From an uncultured Prevotellaceae bacterium (GTDB taxonomy: Bacteria > Bacteroidota > Bacteroidia > Bacteroidales > Muribaculaceae), in assembly GCA_900318645.1 (NCBI GenBank), contig ONLH01000018.1, positions 1-64,000 on the forward strand: DNA of 64,000 bases, read 5' to 3'. A program made the translations under genes and the position numbers. The notes under the pieces are model-generated. The model made no database searches, was not told where the DNA came from, and saw only the letters and a list, made by a program, of their open reading frames with translations. Each line of letters starts with the position of its first letter. Positions within the stretch are counted from its first letter, which is position 1. Shown here one piece after another: positions 4,682-40,648 of the stretch.

Positions 4682-4816
4682 TGATAGCATCCGCGTTCCT
4701 GTCAATTGGAGCGCGGATGTTCATTAAACTCTAAACTTTAAACATTAAACTGCGAGCGTGAGCTCGCATCAATCAAACTTTAAACTGCGAGCGCCAGCTC
4801 GCATCAAATATTTTAC

Positions 4817-31050: not shown

Positions 31051-32205
31051 ATGCAACGATTCCAGGCCAAGCCACATTATGATATCCTTGATGGGCTGCG
31101 TGGTGTCGCTGCCTTGCTGGTGATTGTGTATCACGTTTTTGAATGTTTTGACTGGTCGCCGGTGCCTCATGGCTACCTGGCTGTCGATTTTTTCTTCGTG
31201 TTGTCGGGCTTTGTTATCGGCTATGCCTATGACGACCGATGGAGCGAGGGCCTTACGGTCAGCACTTTCTTCAAGCGACGCCTTATCCGATTGCACCCGA
31301 TGGTGATTATCGGGGCTATTATCGGCATGATATGTTTCCTCTTGCAGGGCAGTGTGCGTTGGGATGGCACGCCTGTCTCGGTGGGGTGGGTTATGGTCGC
31401 GATGCTGATGGGCATGCTGATGCTCCCCTTATATCCTGGTGCTGCCGCCGATGTGAGAGGCAATGGCGAACTGTTTCCGTTGAATGGCCCGTCATGGTCG
31501 CTGTTCTTTGAATATATCGGTAATATCTTTTATGCCTTGTTGCTGCGTCGCCTTTCCACAAGATGGCTGGCTGTGATTGCAGGTGTGACCGGCTGCGTGT
31601 TGGCTTATGTTGCCGTGTCTGATGGCTACTTGGGCGTGGGGTGGTCGATGGTGGACGGAGGGCTGTGGACGGGACTTGTGCGTATGCTGTTCCCCTATAC
31701 GGTGGGTATGCTCATGGCGCGTGTATTCCGTCCTGTAAAGGGCGCGCGGAGTGCCTTCTGGATATGTGCTGCCATCATCTTTCTGGTGGGATGTGTGCCG
31801 CTGGCGTTTGGAGAATTACTGCCGTGGCAGAATGGTTTGTACGATGCCCTGTGTGTCATCCTGGTGTTCCCGTGCTTGGTGTGGTTGGGTGCATCACAAC
31901 TAACGGTAAGTGGCACCACGCAGCGCGTGAGCCATTTCCTGGGCGAACTCAGTTACCCGCTCTATGCGGTCCACTATCCGCTGATGTATCTTTTCTATGC
32001 CCATATCGGCTTCAGCGGTGACCTCGTGCCCATCGCAGTTATGAATGACGTGTGGCCTGTCGCCATAGCCCTGCCTGTGGCTTGCATCCTGCTTGCATGG
32101 CTCTGCTGGCGTTTCTATGACCGCCCCGTTCGCCGTTATCTCATGAAGGCGAGCAGGATGATCCAGCAAAGGCCGAGCAGTGCAAAGAGTGACGACAACA
32201 TGTAG
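31051..32205 (+). CDS. Acyltransferase family 3 membrane protein
   Basis: This 384-residue polytopic membrane protein (about ten helices) has the family-3 acyltransferase opening YDILDGLRGVAALLVIVYHVFE with the conserved His, and FFFVLSGFVIGYAYD. Such enzymes O-acylate surface polysaccharides or lipids. The ATG at 31051 is preferred over a GTG at 31048. The last 70 bases overlap, in antisense, the end of the DUF1232 gene. It lies 27 bases after the USP stop and may be in the same transcript. Confidence 0.88.
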   Translation: MQRFQAKPHYDILDGLRGVAALLVIVYHVFECFDWSPVPHGYLAVDFFFVLSGFVIGYAYDDRWSEGLTVSTFFKRRLIRLHPMVIIGAIIGMICFLLQGSVRWDGTPVSVGWVMVAMLMGMLMLPLYPGAAADVRGNGELFPLNGPSWSLFFEYIGNIFYALLLRRLSTRWLAVIAGVTGCVLAYVAVSDGYLGVGWSMVDGGLWTGLVRMLFPYTVGMLMARVFRPVKGARSAFWICAAIIFLVGCVPLAFGELLPWQNGLYDALCVILVFPCLVWLGASQLTVSGTTQRVSHFLGELSYPLYAVHYPLMYLFYAHIGFSGDLVPIAVMNDVWPVAIALPVACILLAWLCWRFYDRPVRRYLMKASRMIQQRPSSAKSDDNM

Positions 32206-32435
32206 AGTTGGCGGCGAATGTAGCGACGTTCTGGCTTCTGGAAACTGCCGTGAGCAAACGTGAAGGCAGCCATAAACACCATGAAATCATCCACATAGCC
32301 AACGATGCCCTTGTCATCAAAGTCTCCGCCCCAAATGACATAGGCGATTGCAGCCAGTACCAGCACAACCCCTACCACACGACACACCTTCATGCCGGCG
32401 CTCACTTCCTGATGCTTATTCTCTCTCTTCTCCAT
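32136..32435 (-). CDS. DUF1232/YkvA-like membrane protein
   Basis: This 99-residue protein has two to three hydrophobic helices, the first near residues 17-32, and contains VGYVDDFMVFMAAFTFAHGSF, close to the IGYLDDL signature of YkvA/DUF1232 proteins. Function is unknown. Its last 23 codons lie antisense to the end of the acyltransferase gene, and both ends look natural. Confidence 0.75.
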   Translation of the reverse strand: MEKRENKHQEVSAGMKVCRVVGVVLVLAAIAYVIWGGDFDDKGIVGYVDDFMVFMAAFTFAHGSFQKPERRYIRRQLYMLSSLFALLGLCWIILLAFMR

Positions 32436-32461
32436 ATTAAATTATAGAATTAAATGTTTTG

Positions 32462-33745
32462 TCACCATATTTCCAGTAGCCAATCTAGGGCCGAATAAAC
32501 GTGAATTGACTTGTCTTCAGAGGACACTATTTTCGAGTCGGTAAATGCAATTAGCGTGAGTTTGTCACAATTCAATTCATGAGAAGCCTTGACCAGTGAG
32601 GTCGTTTCCCGTTGAAGGGTTTTGGAATTACTGATGTCATACGCAACTTGGATCAGTTCTACGGCTTTGTTTTGATTGCAGATGACAAAATCCACTTCTT
32701 TTGCCCTAGGAGACGTTTTATAATAGTATATGTCAAGGAACAGAGGTGCACATCGGCGCATCAGTTCAATGAACACAATGTTCTCAAGTCTCCACCCCAA
32801 GTCTTCGGCCGCCATCGAATTCTCACGATTGTTTTGGATGCCTATGTCGACTGAATATGTTTTCTCATTGTGAATCCGTTGTTTACTTTTGAAAGAATGC
32901 TTTGTTAGCAATTGTATTAGGAACGCTTGTTGTAGAAATCCGACATATTTTTTGACGGTCTTGTCGGTAACATCCAGAAGCAAAGCAAGTTCACCATAGT
33001 TAATTGTTTGGCATGACGTTGAAATCAAGTGATGAGCCACTTTGCGCAGTACGTCAATATTTCTTACCTGATAGCGGTATTGAATGTCCTTGATAATAAT
33101 GGCTTCAATTAGGCTCTGGACATAACCACGTTTATTGTGCAATGACTGAAGTTCTGGGAATCCGCCATCAATCATGTATTGTGCAAAGGCTTGCTGTCGC
33201 TCAGCGACCGCTTTGGTGGTAATACCCTTAGTGTCAATATGATGAAAATGACAGTACTCTGAGAAAGAAAAAGGAAAGAGATGTATCTCATTATAGCGCC
33301 CCGTAAGATGAGTGGCTAACTCACCGCTCAACAACTTAGCATTGCTACCTGTCACGATGACATGCATCTTGCTTCTCAACAATCGATTCACAAACATGTG
33401 CCAGCCTTCCACATTTTGTACCTCATCAAGGAATAGATACTGAATATCGGCTCCATAAATCTGATAGATGCATGACAGCAATGTGTTAAGGTCTTCGACA
33501 TCCAAACTTGCAAGGCGGTCATCGTCAAAATTAGCATAGGCATAGTTAATCCCGTTCTCAATCAAGACCTTGTGGCAAAGAGTAGATTTTCCACTGCGTC
33601 TTACGCCAATGACGATTTGGGCAAGAGAACTATTCAGCTCAAATAAGGACTCCTCTCTTCGTGCGACCCATGTAGTTGTGTCGTAAGAATTTTTTTCATC
33701 CCTTTGCTCGGCTAAGACCTGGAGTATGATTCTTTCTGTTATCAT
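32462..33745 (-). CDS. AAA ATPase with C-terminal DUF4143 domain (copy 1)
   Basis: This 427-residue protein has Walker A GVRRSGKST (residues 47-55), Walker B YLFLDEVQN (DE at 108-109), a sensor Asn in VTGSNAKLL, and a winged-helix-like middle. The C-terminal DUF4143 domain has the restriction-fold-like strand pair KEVDFVICNQNKAVELIQV, where the usual ExK is replaced by ELIQ. The family is widespread in Bacteroidetes and has no established function. The gene has an excellent promoter, preceded by a tandem pair of inverted-repeat elements at 33813-33869. A second member at 39503 has the same arrangement. Confidence 0.88.
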   Translation of the reverse strand: MITERIILQVLAEQRDEKNSYDTTTWVARREESLFELNSSLAQIVIGVRRSGKSTLCHKVLIENGINYAYANFDDDRLASLDVEDLNTLLSCIYQIYGADIQYLFLDEVQNVEGWHMFVNRLLRSKMHVIVTGSNAKLLSGELATHLTGRYNEIHLFPFSFSEYCHFHHIDTKGITTKAVAERQQAFAQYMIDGGFPELQSLHNKRGYVQSLIEAIIIKDIQYRYQVRNIDVLRKVAHHLISTSCQTINYGELALLLDVTDKTVKKYVGFLQQAFLIQLLTKHSFKSKQRIHNEKTYSVDIGIQNNRENSMAAEDLGWRLENIVFIELMRRCAPLFLDIYYYKTSPRAKEVDFVICNQNKAVELIQVAYDISNSKTLQRETTSLVKASHELNCDKLTLIAFTDSKIVSSEDKSIHVYSALDWLLEIW

Positions 33746-33770
33746 AATGTGGATACTTGATTTTCAAGCG

Positions 33771-33802
33771 CAAAGATAGGTGAAATAATCATACACTCCA
33801 AA
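33771..33802 (-). promoter_or_regulatory. Promoter of ATPase copy 1 (TTTG-N20-TATCTTTG)
   Basis: On the minus strand TTTG (33802-33799), 20 bases, TATCTTTG (33778-33771). Transcription would begin about 20 bases before the ATG at 33745. The paired repeat elements start 11 bases upstream of the -33 box. Confidence 0.85.
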
Positions 33803-33812
33803 TAAATAAGTG

Positions 33813-33869
33813 CATTTTATCGGAGTATAAAACGAAAAAATGTCATTTTATCGGATTGCAAAACGATAA
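33813..33869 (-). repeat. Tandem pair of inverted-repeat elements upstream of ATPase copy 1
   Basis: Two 23-base copies (33813-33835 and 33844-33866) match at 20 of 23 positions with a period of 31 bases. Copy 2 has arms TTATCG and CGATAA around a 10-base centre; copy 1 has the same arms with one mismatch. On the minus strand the copies read ...AATCCGATAAAATG and ...ACTCCGATAAAATG. Likely a regulator- or ATPase-binding site. Confidence 0.75.
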
Positions 33870-33963
33870 CGAGCATTAGGTAAGACTGTCGTATGGCGAT
33901 TAATTCCCTTTGGGGGTTGGTCTATGCTGTGCATGGAGAGGTCGTTTTCGCTACGATCGTGGT

Positions 33964-34359
33964 TTAATAGCCGTCGCGGTCGCTGCGACCGTCTTCGAAG
34001 CCTTCGTCGTAACCTCGTTCGTAGCCGTCCAGGTATTGTTGTCGGGCCTTGCCACGGAGTTTGGTCTGGGGGGCGTAACTGTCTTCATAGGCACCGCCGT
34101 AGTCAGCACCGTCGTTGAAACCGTCTTCATAGCCGTCATCGTAGCCCATTTCCCAGTATTTGTTGACACGGGACGTTTTCTTCTTTTGAGCTGATTTCTT
34201 CTTGGTTTTGGCCTTGCTTTTCTTTTTGCTTTTGGTCTTCTTTGTAGTCACTTTGGTGACACTGGAAAGAGCCCCCAAAGAATGAGGTTCAGGCATCATT
34301 GCACCAGTTGTAAAACTGATGGCAAGGCACATGATGATAGCAAAAACGAAAGATCTCAT
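33964..34359 (-). CDS. Small secreted Lys-rich protein with DGY repeats, unknown function
   Basis: This 131-residue protein starts with a signal peptide (MRSFVFAIIMCLAISFTTGA), then a Lys/Thr/Ser-rich stretch (KTKSKKKSKAKTKKKSAQKK) and a tail of acidic-aromatic repeats (YDDGYEDGFNDG, DGYERGYDEGFEDGRSD). A longer open frame up to 34587 overlaps the tex gene in another frame and has no natural composition, so 34359 is chosen. It lies 13 bases after tex and may be co-transcribed. The tail suggests cation binding or cell-surface charge; no family is recognised. Confidence 0.6.
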   Translation of the reverse strand: MRSFVFAIIMCLAISFTTGAMMPEPHSLGALSSVTKVTTKKTKSKKKSKAKTKKKSAQKKKTSRVNKYWEMGYDDGYEDGFNDGADYGGAYEDSYAPQTKLRGKARQQYLDGYERGYDEGFEDGRSDRDGY

Positions 34360-34372
34360 CAATCGTTGACTC

Positions 34373-36511
34373 TTACTTGGGTTGGTCGATGCCGCGCATG
34401 GAGAGGGCGATGCGGCCGCGGTCATGGTCGATGCTGGCGACGCGGACGCGGACGTGCTGGTGGACGTGGACCTGGCGGGCGGGGGGAAGACCCTTCTGAG
34501 GCATCTGAGACACGTGGACGAGGCCGTCCTTGTGGATGCCCAGATCGACGAAAGCGCCAAACTGGGTGACGTTGGTGACGATGCCATTCAGCTCCATGCC
34601 TTCTCTCAGGTCCTTGATGTCGTTGACGTTCTCGTCAAATTCCCATACTTGCACCGTCGAGCGAGGGTCGCGTCCAGGTTTCTCCAGCTCGCTCATGATG
34701 TCACGCAAGGTGGGTTCGCCTACATCCTTGGAGAGATAGCGTTGCAGGTCAATCTTGTCGCGTTGTGCCTTGTCCTTGATGAGGTCGGCGATGCTGCAAC
34801 CGCAGTCCCGTGCCATGCGCTCTACAAGGGCGTAACGCTCGGGATGGACGGCGCTGTTGTCCAATGGATTGGCGCTCTCGGGTACGCGCAAGAAACCTGC
34901 CGCCTGCTCAAAGGTCTTTGGACCCAGTTTGGGTACCTTGAGCAGCTGTTGGCGTGATGTGAAGTGGCCGTTGGCAGCGCGATAATCCACGATGTTCTGG
35001 GCGAGGGTGGGGCCGAGGCCTGCGATGTAGGTGAGCAGTTCCTTGGAGGCCGTGTTGACGTTCACGCCGACGCTGTTCACGCAGCTCTGCACCGTGAAGT
35101 CCAGGGCCTCCTTGAGCCGTGTCTGGTCCACGTCATGCTGGTACTGTCCCACGCCGATGGACTTGGGGTCAATCTTGACCAATTCGGCAAGTGGATCGAG
35201 CAGACGGCGTCCGATAGAAACGGCACCGCGCACGGTCACGTCCTTGTCGGGGAACTCGTCGCGGGCAATCTTGCTGGCGCTATAGATGGAAGCACCATTC
35301 TCGCTCACGACAAACACGTCGATGGGTCGGCGGTAACGGATGCGCTTCAGAAAACGCTCGGTCTCGCGACTGGCCGTGCCGTTGCCCAGGGCGATGGCGT
35401 CAATCTTGTAGGCCTCGGTGAGCGAGTGTATCTTCTTGGTCGCCCCCTCGATGTCATTGTGGGGAGCGGTGGGGTAGATGACATCGTTATACAGCAGGTT
35501 GCCCTGCTCGTCAAGGCAGACAACTTTGCAGCCGGTGCGGAAGCCGGGATCGACGGCTAATACGCGCTTGCGGCCCAAGGGCGGCGCAAACAACAGTTGG
35601 CGCACGTTCTGGGCGAAGGTTTCAATGGCCTCGTCATCGGCTTTCTCTTTGGCTGCCGTTGCAAACTCCGTCTCGATAGATGGCTTGACCAGGCGCTTGA
35701 AGCTGTCTTCGGCAGCCTCATCAACTAGCTGTGATGCTTCGCCATTGCCCTTGACCACGATGCGTGCGATATTGTCAAGCGTGCGGTCATCGTTGATTTC
35801 GATACCGACCTTGAGGAAGCCTTCCTTCTCGCCACGGCGGATGGCCAGTAACTGATGAGATGAAACGCGCTTCAACGGCATGGAGTACTCATAGTAGTTC
35901 TCATAGTTGCGGCCCTCAATCTCCTTGCCCTTGACGAAGTGGGAGACGAGTCGCGCGTCATACTTGAAGCCTCGTCTAACCGCGTTGCGCACCGCCTCGT
36001 TTTCGCTAACCCACTCGGCGATGATGTCTTGTGCTCCCGTGATGGCTGCATCGGTGTCGGGCACCTTGTCACCATCAACAAATTGTTTTGCCCGTTCCTC
36101 GATATTGCCGCTGCGTTGCGACATGATGATTTTGGCCAGCGGCTCGAGCCCCAGTTGGCGAGCTGCTTCGGCGCGGGTCTTGCGTTTGGGTTTGTAGGGC
36201 AGGTAGATGTCTTCCAGCGTGTTGGCATCCCAGCAGTTGTTGATGCGGTCGGCCAGTTCGGGAGTCAGTTTGTCTTGTGCCTCGATGGTCTTGAGGATGG
36301 TGGCGCGGCGCTTCTCCAATTCGCGGTAGTAACGCAGCCGTTGGTCAATAGACTGGATGGAAAAATCGTCGAGGTTGCCTGTCGCCTCCTTGCGGTAACG
36401 GCTGATGAACGGGATGGTCGCACCATCGTCAAGCAGATTGACGGTGCCTGCCACTTGGTTAATGGGTATGTTCAGCTCTTGGGAAATGAGCGTTGAGAGT
36501 TTGTCTGCCAT
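34373..36511 (-). CDS. tex: Tex, RNA-binding transcription accessory protein
   Basis: The 712-residue protein has the full Tex layout: N-terminal helical domain, YqgF/RNase-H-like domain near residues 320-450 (VLAVDPGFRTGCKV), helix-hairpin-helix domains (VNTASKELLTYIAGLGPTLAQNIVDYRAANG) and a C-terminal S1 RNA-binding domain (LNGIVTNVTQFGAFVDLGIHKDGLVHVSQM). Tex is a conserved RNA-binding factor linked to transcription-coupled processes. It lacks the DNA-binding extra insertions of longer forms. The upstream spacer is filled by an AACTGGGAA tract. Confidence 0.95.
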   Translation of the reverse strand: MADKLSTLISQELNIPINQVAGTVNLLDDGATIPFISRYRKEATGNLDDFSIQSIDQRLRYYRELEKRRATILKTIEAQDKLTPELADRINNCWDANTLEDIYLPYKPKRKTRAEAARQLGLEPLAKIIMSQRSGNIEERAKQFVDGDKVPDTDAAITGAQDIIAEWVSENEAVRNAVRRGFKYDARLVSHFVKGKEIEGRNYENYYEYSMPLKRVSSHQLLAIRRGEKEGFLKVGIEINDDRTLDNIARIVVKGNGEASQLVDEAAEDSFKRLVKPSIETEFATAAKEKADDEAIETFAQNVRQLLFAPPLGRKRVLAVDPGFRTGCKVVCLDEQGNLLYNDVIYPTAPHNDIEGATKKIHSLTEAYKIDAIALGNGTASRETERFLKRIRYRRPIDVFVVSENGASIYSASKIARDEFPDKDVTVRGAVSIGRRLLDPLAELVKIDPKSIGVGQYQHDVDQTRLKEALDFTVQSCVNSVGVNVNTASKELLTYIAGLGPTLAQNIVDYRAANGHFTSRQQLLKVPKLGPKTFEQAAGFLRVPESANPLDNSAVHPERYALVERMARDCGCSIADLIKDKAQRDKIDLQRYLSKDVGEPTLRDIMSELEKPGRDPRSTVQVWEFDENVNDIKDLREGMELNGIVTNVTQFGAFVDLGIHKDGLVHVSQMPQKGLPPARQVHVHQHVRVRVASIDHDRGRIALSMRGIDQPK

Positions 36512-39127: not shown

Positions 39128-39475
39128 TTTTGATTTGGTTTTGTTGAGGCACATGCAAATTTAACCCATTAACCCTGCAGAGCCAACGTGAATTACACGA
39201 ATTAAGGCCACGCGAAGACGAGGCCCTACGATAAACAACTGAAAAGTCTAAGCCCATGCTATAGTTGTTGTGAAACTTCGTTTGCTGCAGCCAAGATTAA
39301 CATAATTCTCCTTGCTATCGTGGTGGCATTCATTGTGTAAATCCGAAGTGCTACTCCCGATTTACATTGCAAATCCGAAGTAGTACTCCCGATTTGCGCG
39401 ATTTAAAAGCATAATAATCAATAAAATGAAGTTTTTTTATTGAATTTTTTTTAGAAATAAATTTTTTGTGTAATT
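39128..39475. other. Intergenic region with a GTAGGGCCTCG element and the paired elements of ATPase copy 2
   Basis: No gene is present. A GTAGGGCCTCGTCTTCGCG element on the minus strand (39232-39210) resembles the one at 4554-4577. Two tandem inverted-repeat elements occupy 39337-39397. The rest is AT-rich. Confidence 0.6.
39337..39397 (+). repeat. Tandem pair of inverted-repeat elements upstream of ATPase copy 2
   Basis: Two 29-base elements (39337-39365 and 39369-39397) match at 25 of 29 positions, with a 32-base period. Element 1 has arms GTAAATC/GATTTAC, element 2 GCAAATC/GATTTGC; the single change in each arm is compensatory, so pairing is preserved. The centres read CGAAGTGCTACTCCC and CGAAGTAGTACTCCC. 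Confidence 0.85.
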
Positions 39476-39478
39476 TTG
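39471..39478 (+). promoter_or_regulatory. -7 box TAATTTTG of ATPase copy 2
   Basis: TAATTTTG lies 24 bases before the ATG at 39503, which favours that start over an in-frame TTG at 39476. No clear -33 box. Confidence 0.6.
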
Positions 39479-39502: not shown

Positions 39503-40648
39503 ATGTATCCACGCATTCTTTCACTTGACGAAATACAGGATGACAGTCTTTTCTTGTGGGGTGCCAGACAGACAGGAAAGAGCACGTTATTGAAAGCGTT
39601 GTTCCCTAAGGCCAGGTACTATGATCTGCTGAACGCTAATCTGTTTCGCTCCCTGTCACGTAACCCATCGCTGATGAGGGAACAACTCATATTGTTGCCC
39701 AAAGGCTCGGTGGTCATCATCGATGAAGTTCAGAAAGTACCTGACCTGCTTGATGAGGTTCACTGGTTAATCCAGAACCAAGGGCTGCATTTCATCTTGT
39801 GCGGCTCTAGTGCACGCAAGTTACGTCGTAGTGGTGCAAACCTGTTAGGCGGTCGGGCGTTATCTAACACGCTGTTCCCATTGGTGAGTGCCGAGATTGA
39901 TGATTTTGACCTTGAACGTGCACTTAACTATGGGACTATACCACCTCATTACTTAGCAAAGAATCCCGTGCGGCGTCTGCAGGCCTATATTGATGATTAC
40001 ATCCAACAAGAAATTGTTGCAGAATTGGTATTGCGTAATTTGTCGGCTTTCACTCGTTTTCTTGAAGTAGCGGCATTGAGTGACACTGAGATTGTCAATT
40101 ATACAAACATTGCTGCTGAATGTGGAGTGTCTGCCAAGACGGTAAAGGAGTATTTTTCAATATTGGAAGAAACGATGTTTGGCTTTATGCTTCCAGCCTA
40201 TACACGCACCATCAAGAGGCGCTTGGTACAAAGTCCCAAATTCTATTTCTTTGATGTGGGAATCCCCAACTACCTGCTGGAAAGAACTCCGCTTAAACCT
40301 GATACAGCAGATTATGGTCATGCCTTTGAACACTTGATGGTCCAAGAATTGAGAGCATATCTTGGCTACCACCACTCTCGTAAACAATTGTCCTATTGGC
40401 GCACATCAAGTGGCATTGAAGTGGATTGCGTTATCGGCGACGCCGAGGTAGCGATAGAATTCAAGTCCTCTACTGAAGTGCGTAACGCCCAATTGAAGGG
40501 GCTACGCACCTTCGCCGAAGAGCATCCTGGTGTCAAGCGATATGTGGTATCTCGTGAAATATATCCACGCCTTGTCGATGGCATCGAGATTTGGCCCATT
40601 CGTGACTTCCTTGCCAAACTCTGGCAAGGGGGTGTCATCACACCGTGA
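39503..40648 (+). CDS. AAA ATPase with C-terminal DUF4143 domain (copy 2)
   Basis: This 381-residue protein has Walker A GARQTGKST (residues 20-28), Walker B VVIIDEVQKV (DE at 74-75), sensor GSSARKL and a C-terminal DUF4143 domain. That domain ends in EVDCVIGDAEVAIEFKSS, which keeps the E...ExK pattern of restriction-like folds that copy 1 has lost. It is divergent from copy 1, so the two are not a recent duplication, yet both are preceded by tandem inverted-repeat elements. It converges with the tricorn-like protease gene. Confidence 0.87.
   Translation: MYPRILSLDEIQDDSLFLWGARQTGKSTLLKALFPKARYYDLLNANLFRSLSRNPSLMREQLILLPKGSVVIIDEVQKVPDLLDEVHWLIQNQGLHFILCGSSARKLRRSGANLLGGRALSNTLFPLVSAEIDDFDLERALNYGTIPPHYLAKNPVRRLQAYIDDYIQQEIVAELVLRNLSAFTRFLEVAALSDTEIVNYTNIAAECGVSAKTVKEYFSILEETMFGFMLPAYTRTIKRRLVQSPKFYFFDVGIPNYLLERTPLKPDTADYGHAFEHLMVQELRAYLGYHHSRKQLSYWRTSSGIEVDCVIGDAEVAIEFKSSTEVRNAQLKGLRTFAEEHPGVKRYVVSREIYPRLVDGIEIWPIRDFLAKLWQGGVITP

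Follow-up and report, generated by a model that had tools for sequence, protein, structure and literature searches.

Tandem palindromes upstream of a PDC-S01-type ATPase-nuclease gene as probable docking sites of the encoded protein

Two palindromes in front of an ATPase-nuclease gene of an uncultured Prevotellaceae bacterium most likely serve the gene's own product, a DNA-cutting ATPase, as private docking sites. Matching sites are present at most of the relatives examined, which span several bacterial phyla, and bases 9-11 of the half-sites track residues 210-212, where the recognition helix of a predicted winged helix-turn-helix (HTH) domain begins. The palindromes, their family-wide conservation and this residue-to-base code come directly from computation. 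They make it quite probable, in our judgement, that the ATPase-nuclease encoded just behind the two palindromes binds them as its cognate sites, autoregulation being the likeliest role. The features concerned are given below, with positions in the window, i.e. the whole stretch of 64,000 nucleotides that was analysed.

39336 to 39366, forward strand: palindromic site 1, TGTAAATCCGAAGTGCTACTCCCGATTTACA, that is TGTAAATCCGAAGT-GCT-ACTCCCGATTTACA
39368 to 39398, forward strand: palindromic site 2, TGCAAATCCGAAGTAGTACTCCCGATTTGCG, that is TGCAAATCCGAAGT-AGT-ACTCCCGATTTGCG, 32 bp after site 1
39471 to 39478, forward strand: putative -7 box TAATTTTG, which fits TAnnTTTG and starts 73 bp past the end of site 2
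39503 to 40648, forward strand: the window gene, AAA_14 plus DUF4143 (PDC-S01 type), 381 amino acids, from Pfam, PADLOC and a structure model
40034 to 40210, forward strand: codons of the predicted winged HTH (residues 178-236), from the structure model
40130 to 40138, forward strand: codons 210-212 (Ser-Ala-Lys), which co-vary with half-site bases 9-11
32462 to 33745, reverse strand: copy 1, a divergent AAA_14/DUF4143 gene preceded by an array of its own, from Pfam and PADLOC
33813 to 33858, reverse strand: the array 5' of copy 1, half-site ACTCCGATAAAATG (reverse complement CATTTTATCGGAGT)

The palindrome pair and its gene

The two sites are imperfect 31-bp palindromes, 32 bp apart, located 5' of the AAA_14/DUF4143 gene; the start of site 1 is 167 bp from the ATG at 39503. 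An earlier, sequence-only reading of this DNA had described two 29-base elements with a 32-bp period and with arms GTAAATC/GATTTAC in one and GCAAATC/GATTTGC in the other. Indeed, 39337-39365 and 39369-39397 are identical at 25 of 29 positions, and period and arms are as described. The words AATCCGA and TACTCC(C)GAT, said to occur at both ATPase loci of the window, are found in the sequence of both, because the tandem arrays of copy 1's family use half-sites such as CATTTTATCGGAGT (by eye). Upstream of the copy-1-type genes L308, L309 and L310, longer arrays of TTTTGTGCAATCAATTGAACAAAA are seen, also by eye, with about five copies in L310.

A Pfam search detects six DUF4143 genes in the bacterium's own genome. 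When 281 of its upstream regions, taken from the window and about 396 kb of the genome, are ranked by a tandem-palindrome score that was designed after the pair had been seen, these six genes occupy ranks 1, 2, 3, 4, 6 and 7, the window gene being second. Rank 5, the sole non-ATPase among the top seven, is an unrelated gene (amylase-like by reading). It lies just behind tandem palindromes at 4745-4807 of the window (TTAAACTGCGAGC...GCTCGCATCAA, 35-bp period).

Pfam assigns AAA_14 and DUF4143 to the window gene, with AAA_22 under its cut-off. The PDC-S01 models of PADLOC match both ATPases of the window, with best E-values of 1.4e-57 for the window gene and 2.7e-100 for copy 1. The two proteins are 26% identical over 261 residues and both genes have tandem arrays, in keeping with the earlier claim that they share a design which is not due to recent duplication. 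Residues G20, K26, D74 and E75 of the ATPase motifs, as well as D308, E319 and K321 of the PD-(D/E)XK motif, are invariant in 81 sequences; we take D308, E319, K321 and the Walker residues to be catalytic. An AlphaFold2 model made with the 81 sequences (mean pLDDT 92) comprises an AAA+ part, a winged HTH and a PD-(D/E)XK domain, these names being read from secondary structure and motifs. The winged HTH, residues 178-236, is modelled with confidence, and its recognition helix spans residues 211-223.

Fold matches of the model include DNA-bound Orc1/Cdc6 (2v1u and 2qby; TM 0.26-0.27 by query length) and also STAND proteins, with low whole-chain scores. The winged helix of STAND proteins need not bind DNA. 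The presence of Orc1/Cdc6 among the matches, the combination of AAA+ with a winged HTH and the tandem arrays adjoining the gene would suit origin- or iteron-like sites serving an Orc1/Cdc6- or Rep-like initiator. However, the window gene sits, by reading, among ordinary chromosomal genes with no replicon genes seen beside it, and its product carries a PD-(D/E)XK domain; we regard an initiator as extremely improbable.

Conservation of the site

In the window gene's subfamily 51 loci were read, with identities of 51-100%. The sites of clade A (72-100% identity) are near TGTAAATCCGAAGT-NNN-ACTCCCGATTTACA. Other clades of the subfamily keep the AGT-NNN-ACT core, with changed arms and a changed distance to the start codon, and inside each clade that distance is nearly constant. 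In L009, 80% identical to the window protein, the pair is in reverse orientation. The half-site consensus is TG[CT]AAATTT[GA]AAGT, 14 bases, two copies of which stand around a free NNN.

A 14-base half-site model was used to score 183 loci, one region being too short for the shuffle comparison, which thus covers 182. A score of at least 12 (arm-AGT-NNN-ACT-arm) is reached by 150 of these 182 related upstream regions but by only 1 of 546 dinucleotide shuffles to which the model was likewise applied; since the loci also served for its training, the comparison leans somewhat towards the real scores. The window pair scores 37.4, compared with a maximum of 13.9 in the shuffles. The proposal that a dyad is under selection is upheld by this contrast. 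The 32 regions that misfit the model include those of 4 of the own genome's six ATPase genes, where the arrays have another form.

Within the subfamily, a site is present in 42 of 50 scorable loci (L015, without upstream sequence, is left out of the count), and none was found in L016, L088, L100, L103, L104, L106, L107 and L108. Five of these, L016, L104, L106, L107 and L108, form a clade without AGT-NNN-ACT that has another conserved upstream stretch in common, and four of the five sit behind one common comM-like neighbour-gene cluster.

As a control in the own genome, 285 upstream regions were scored. Six reach 12 or more: two belong to ATPase genes and four to other genes, whose scores are 27, 27, 14.0 and 13.6, both genes at 27 sharing one intergenic site. 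In a neighbour-gene control at named-genome loci, 13 of 133 regions score at least 12, and all 13 owe this to the site of the adjacent ATPase gene. Named genomes provided 80 relatives, of which 79 were scored. A site is present in 69 of them; outside Bacteroidota, with phyla taken from record titles, the count is 33 of 42. Perfect 14-pair palindromes occur, for example, in L230 (Prolixibacteraceae), L250 (Lamprocystis), L222 (KSB1) and L261 (Burkholderiales). When palindromy only is tested, with 40 shuffles each, p is at most 0.05 in 52 of 77 named-genome loci and above that value in 25.

The sequence-only reading had asked whether the type of element co-varies with the ATPase subfamily. It does: the arms differ between clades, and bases of the site are linked to residues of the protein.

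A residue-to-base code

For the 147 of 183 loci that score at least 15 (Neff 97), protein columns were compared with half-site bases by mutual information with average-product correction (APC-MI). Among all column pairs, the four highest values are those of residue 212 with position 10 (0.69), 212 with 11 (0.57), 211 with 9 (0.44) and 210 with 11 (0.37); the fifth-ranked protein-DNA pair has an APC-MI of 0.24. Counting genes that have the base in both half-sites, Lys212 goes with G10 (46 of 47 genes), as does His212 (9 of 9), while Pro212 goes with A10 (35 of 38), as does Val212 (7 of 9). Asn212 is found with G10 in 12 and with C11 in 15 of 22 genes. At the two neighbouring residues, Asp210 is associated with G11 (17/20), Ser210 with A11 (78/106) and His211 with G9 (15/18). 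The code is not clean throughout: Thr212 occurs with A or C, and Ala211 with mixed bases.

The influence of kinship was reduced by means of 73 disjoint nearest pairs, chosen on columns that exclude the winged HTH. Where both members have the same residue 212 (51 pairs), base 10 never differs; where residue 212 is unequal, it differs in 13 of 22 pairs (p = 5.8e-9). This is the lowest p of 2687 nearest-pair tests, the next being that of residue 264 (3e-6). With permutation confined to protein clusters, z at the finer cut lies between 10 and 14. L074 (Ser-Ser-Lys, with GAAGT) and L071 (Ser-Gly-Val, with AAAGT), 66% identical outside the winged HTH, provide a natural contrast. Copy 1, at 26% identity, has Lys at the position aligned with 212 and G at half-site position 10.

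In a held-out test, the table was learned on genus and family loci and applied to named genomes. Residue 212 predicts base 10 in 80 of 104 half-sites, versus 41 by the majority base, and is the best predictor of this base among columns with at least 80 half-sites. Outside Bacteroidota the prediction is correct in 29 of 44, versus 7. There is little gain for residue 212 with position 11 (67 versus 61 of 104) or for 211 with position 9 (57 versus 57 of 86). Residue 210 predicts position 11 in 103 versus 81 of 132 half-sites, with no gain outside Bacteroidota (46 versus 46 of 60). The site bases track the recognition helix encoded beside them, so that the palindromes upstream of the gene are most likely read by the ATPase-nuclease itself.

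Promoter geometry and mode of action

Most of the 150 upstream regions with a site hold one (93) or two (47); three sites occur in 6 regions, four in 3 and five in 1. Among 72 successive site spacings, 37 are of 32 bp and 7 of 31 bp. Of 81 genus and family loci with a site, 33 have it upstream of the core promoter, 20 overlapping it and 15 downstream; 13 have no recognised box. With sites in all three positions, no single repression geometry fits all of the loci. At the window gene, the putative -7 box matches what we take to be the Bacteroidota consensus, TAnnTTTG, and its 73-bp distance from site 2 is odd for a simple blocking repressor.

The role is probably that of an autoregulatory operator array, as judged from the DNA and the modelled protein. 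One winged-HTH domain would read each 14-base half-site, with positions 9-11 contacted by residues 210-212, where the recognition helix begins. If each half-site is read by one winged HTH, a dimer would cover one palindrome. The 32-bp step amounts to about three turns of DNA, so that two dimers would lie on the same face, perhaps as part of an AAA+ oligomer. Seated at its own promoter, the protein may hold its synthesis, and perhaps its nuclease, in check.

The sequence-only reading had taken the paired change in the arms as a sign of selection on pairing, either of the dyad or of a hairpin. This argument loses its force in the 12 elements of clade A. At position 3, four have T/T and two C/C, while mixed T/C is the commonest kind (6 of 12); the clade-A pattern did not pick up elements whose arms have changed, for instance the second element of L140. 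The compensatory argument is weak because each half-site takes C or T freely at that position. In 150 sites, left and right half-sites do agree above re-dealing among all loci at most positions, in a control that ignores kinship.

RNA hairpins, acting as an attenuator or a regulatory 5' leader, would be another way to account for the palindromes. RNA folding beats shuffles, with z of -3.6 and -4.3 for the single elements and -6.0 for both together, and in some clades the sites lie within the presumed 5' leader. Good folding, however, is expected of any palindrome, and a search of Rfam gave no family match at E ≤ 1. In addition, the window pair sits 5' of the promoter box, the pair of L009 is reversed, and the site bases follow a DNA-recognition helix. 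The transcribed hairpin that had been envisaged is thus unlikely, and RNA as the basis of these sites is very unlikely in our estimate. We return below to DNA sites for the ATPase-nuclease.

Sites without a gene

Occurrence of the pair at unrelated places in the genome would have counted against the earlier reading. In the own genome, a 25-base motif, allowing up to 3 mismatches, has two matches, both being this pair. In related genomes, though, orphan sites lie apart from any such gene. In 101 genomes of the genus, the motif has 56 matches in 33 genomes, versus 2 for the reversed pattern, with at most 3 in any genome. These 56 matches represent 37 places. An ATPase ORF adjoins 15 of them (one of copy-1 type, one cut by a contig end), and at 21 no ATPase ORF or fragment was detected by tblastn in flanks of 0.2 to about 4 kb, some of them limited by contig ends; one place (G248:C3) is outside this count. 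At family level, 32 of 198 genomes contain a second pattern when up to 3 mismatches are allowed, with 39 matches to the forward form and 5 to the reversed one. In the flanks of the 30 loci fetched for it, an ATPase ORF is present at 8 of the 14 with 0-2 mismatches and at 1 of the 16 with 3 mismatches; therefore 6 of the 14 better loci are again sites without a gene. A generic consensus with at most 1 mismatch was found in 0 of 395 genomes at the phylum level, which speaks to rarity alone. Four exact site patterns had no match in viral contigs. Relatives of the protein include 29 distant loci in viral contigs (24-33% identity), 5 phage records and 326 plasmid records.

Neighbour names used here (tex, comM, etfA, acyltransferase, amylase and so on) were read from translations, and DUF4143 places were listed for 7 of the genomes with orphan sites. 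In L140 (genome G268), the ATPase is absent and the pair adjoins the acyltransferase-like gene that also neighbours it in the window; the likeness to the window continues for about 30 bp beyond site 2. Other orphans have neighbours in common with occupied places, chiefly downstream of a tex-like gene. The place 3' of this gene (32205-34373 of the window, and L014, L084, L089, L090, L142, L144 and L151) holds clade D2 genes, a copy-1-type gene or sites alone, depending on the genome. Among 30 etfA-like loci, a site is nearby in L370 only; the orphan L139 is outside these 30. In the own genome, L192:4673-4966 (G000:C34) contains an orphan-like match to the half-site model, with a score of 27, between divergent non-ATPase genes. 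Orphan pairs that are simply free-living repeats are less likely, because, by eye, orphans of clade A retain part of what stands behind the pair where the gene is present.

A similar site just past the stop codon occurs in 6 of 161 genes, and four of these have their upstream central triplet there too. Terminal repeats were therefore not adopted as a general rule; the window gene, like 155 of the 161, is without a downstream site. At L427 (G095:C34) a site lies just 3' of the ATPase gene, and at L428 (G017:C78) identical palindromes stand on both flanks.

Plain gene loss accounts most simply for the orphans. Another reading takes the palindromes as recognised ends or landing sites of a mobile cassette made of sites, promoter and ATPase gene, with the nuclease helping movement and the orphans as scars. 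Five clade-A genes have no neighbour-gene cluster in common in flanks of up to about 1.5 kb, the orphan pair of L140 stands at the window gene's own neighbour and others at recurrent places, and the tex-like place holds different ATPase families across genomes. The lack of ATPase fragments in the fetched flanks of the 21 orphan places and the few downstream sites, four with the upstream triplet, also point that way. Conversely, 155 of 161 genes are without a downstream site, the sequence kept 3' of the pair at clade-A orphans is what plain gene loss predicts, neither of two places inspected had a precise empty site or a target-site duplication, and the site-to-start-codon distance is nearly constant within clades. 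We consider such a cassette rather unlikely. A broader version would make PDC-S01 genes self-addressed selfish cassettes, instead of or besides defence, each with a private palindrome read by the residue code and used both to regulate and to move or retain the gene, single or paired palindromes being left behind as scars; this too we hold to be doubtful.

For the operator reading, which we prefer, the dyad lies at the gene's own promoter in 150 of 182 relatives and the site bases co-vary with the recognition helix. Against a simple operator stand the varied promoter geometry, the 21 gene-less places and the downstream site of 6 of 161 genes.

Relation to known systems

Both ATPases of the window match the PADLOC models of PDC-S01, a phage defence candidate in which an ATPase is fused to PD-(D/E)XK. 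PDC-S01 is reported to top the individual loci of rumen genomes in frequency (PMC13356809) and to rank as the fourth most common defence across prokaryotes (PMC12988326), with validation pending for most such defence candidates (PMC12988326). A term search of the main text of PMC12988326 returns no description of a cis-acting site for PDC-S01, and no mention of one for this family was found in the open-licence literature on DUF4143, PDC-S01 and COG1373. The phage-defence role of the window gene is assumed from databases and has candidate status.

A cis site together with a residue-to-base code means that the target sequence is partly predictable from the protein. Paralogs within one genome carry different sites, and the code suggests how several of them coexist. 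Binding, autoregulation and mobility become directly testable for a common candidate anti-phage gene.

Autoregulated HTH repressors with palindromic operators are well known, for example controller proteins and toxin-antitoxin repressors. The present system resembles them in that palindromes lie at the gene's own promoter and HTH residues track the site bases. It differs in that the HTH is inside an AAA+ nuclease, the sites of paralogs differ and promoter geometry varies. Archaeal Orc1/Cdc6 with its origin boxes shares the combination of AAA+ and winged helix, and 2v1u and 2qby are among the fold matches; unlike Orc1/Cdc6, the window protein has a nuclease domain and no origin context, and over the full chain the match is weak, as the low TM values given above show.

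REP palindromes with RAYT transposases also consist of palindromes beside the gene of a DNA-processing enzyme, plus orphan copies, and the sites described here are like them in both respects. However, the own genome has two copies of the motif rather than hundreds, and the protein is AAA_14/DUF4143 by Pfam and not a RAYT (HUH/Y1) transposase.
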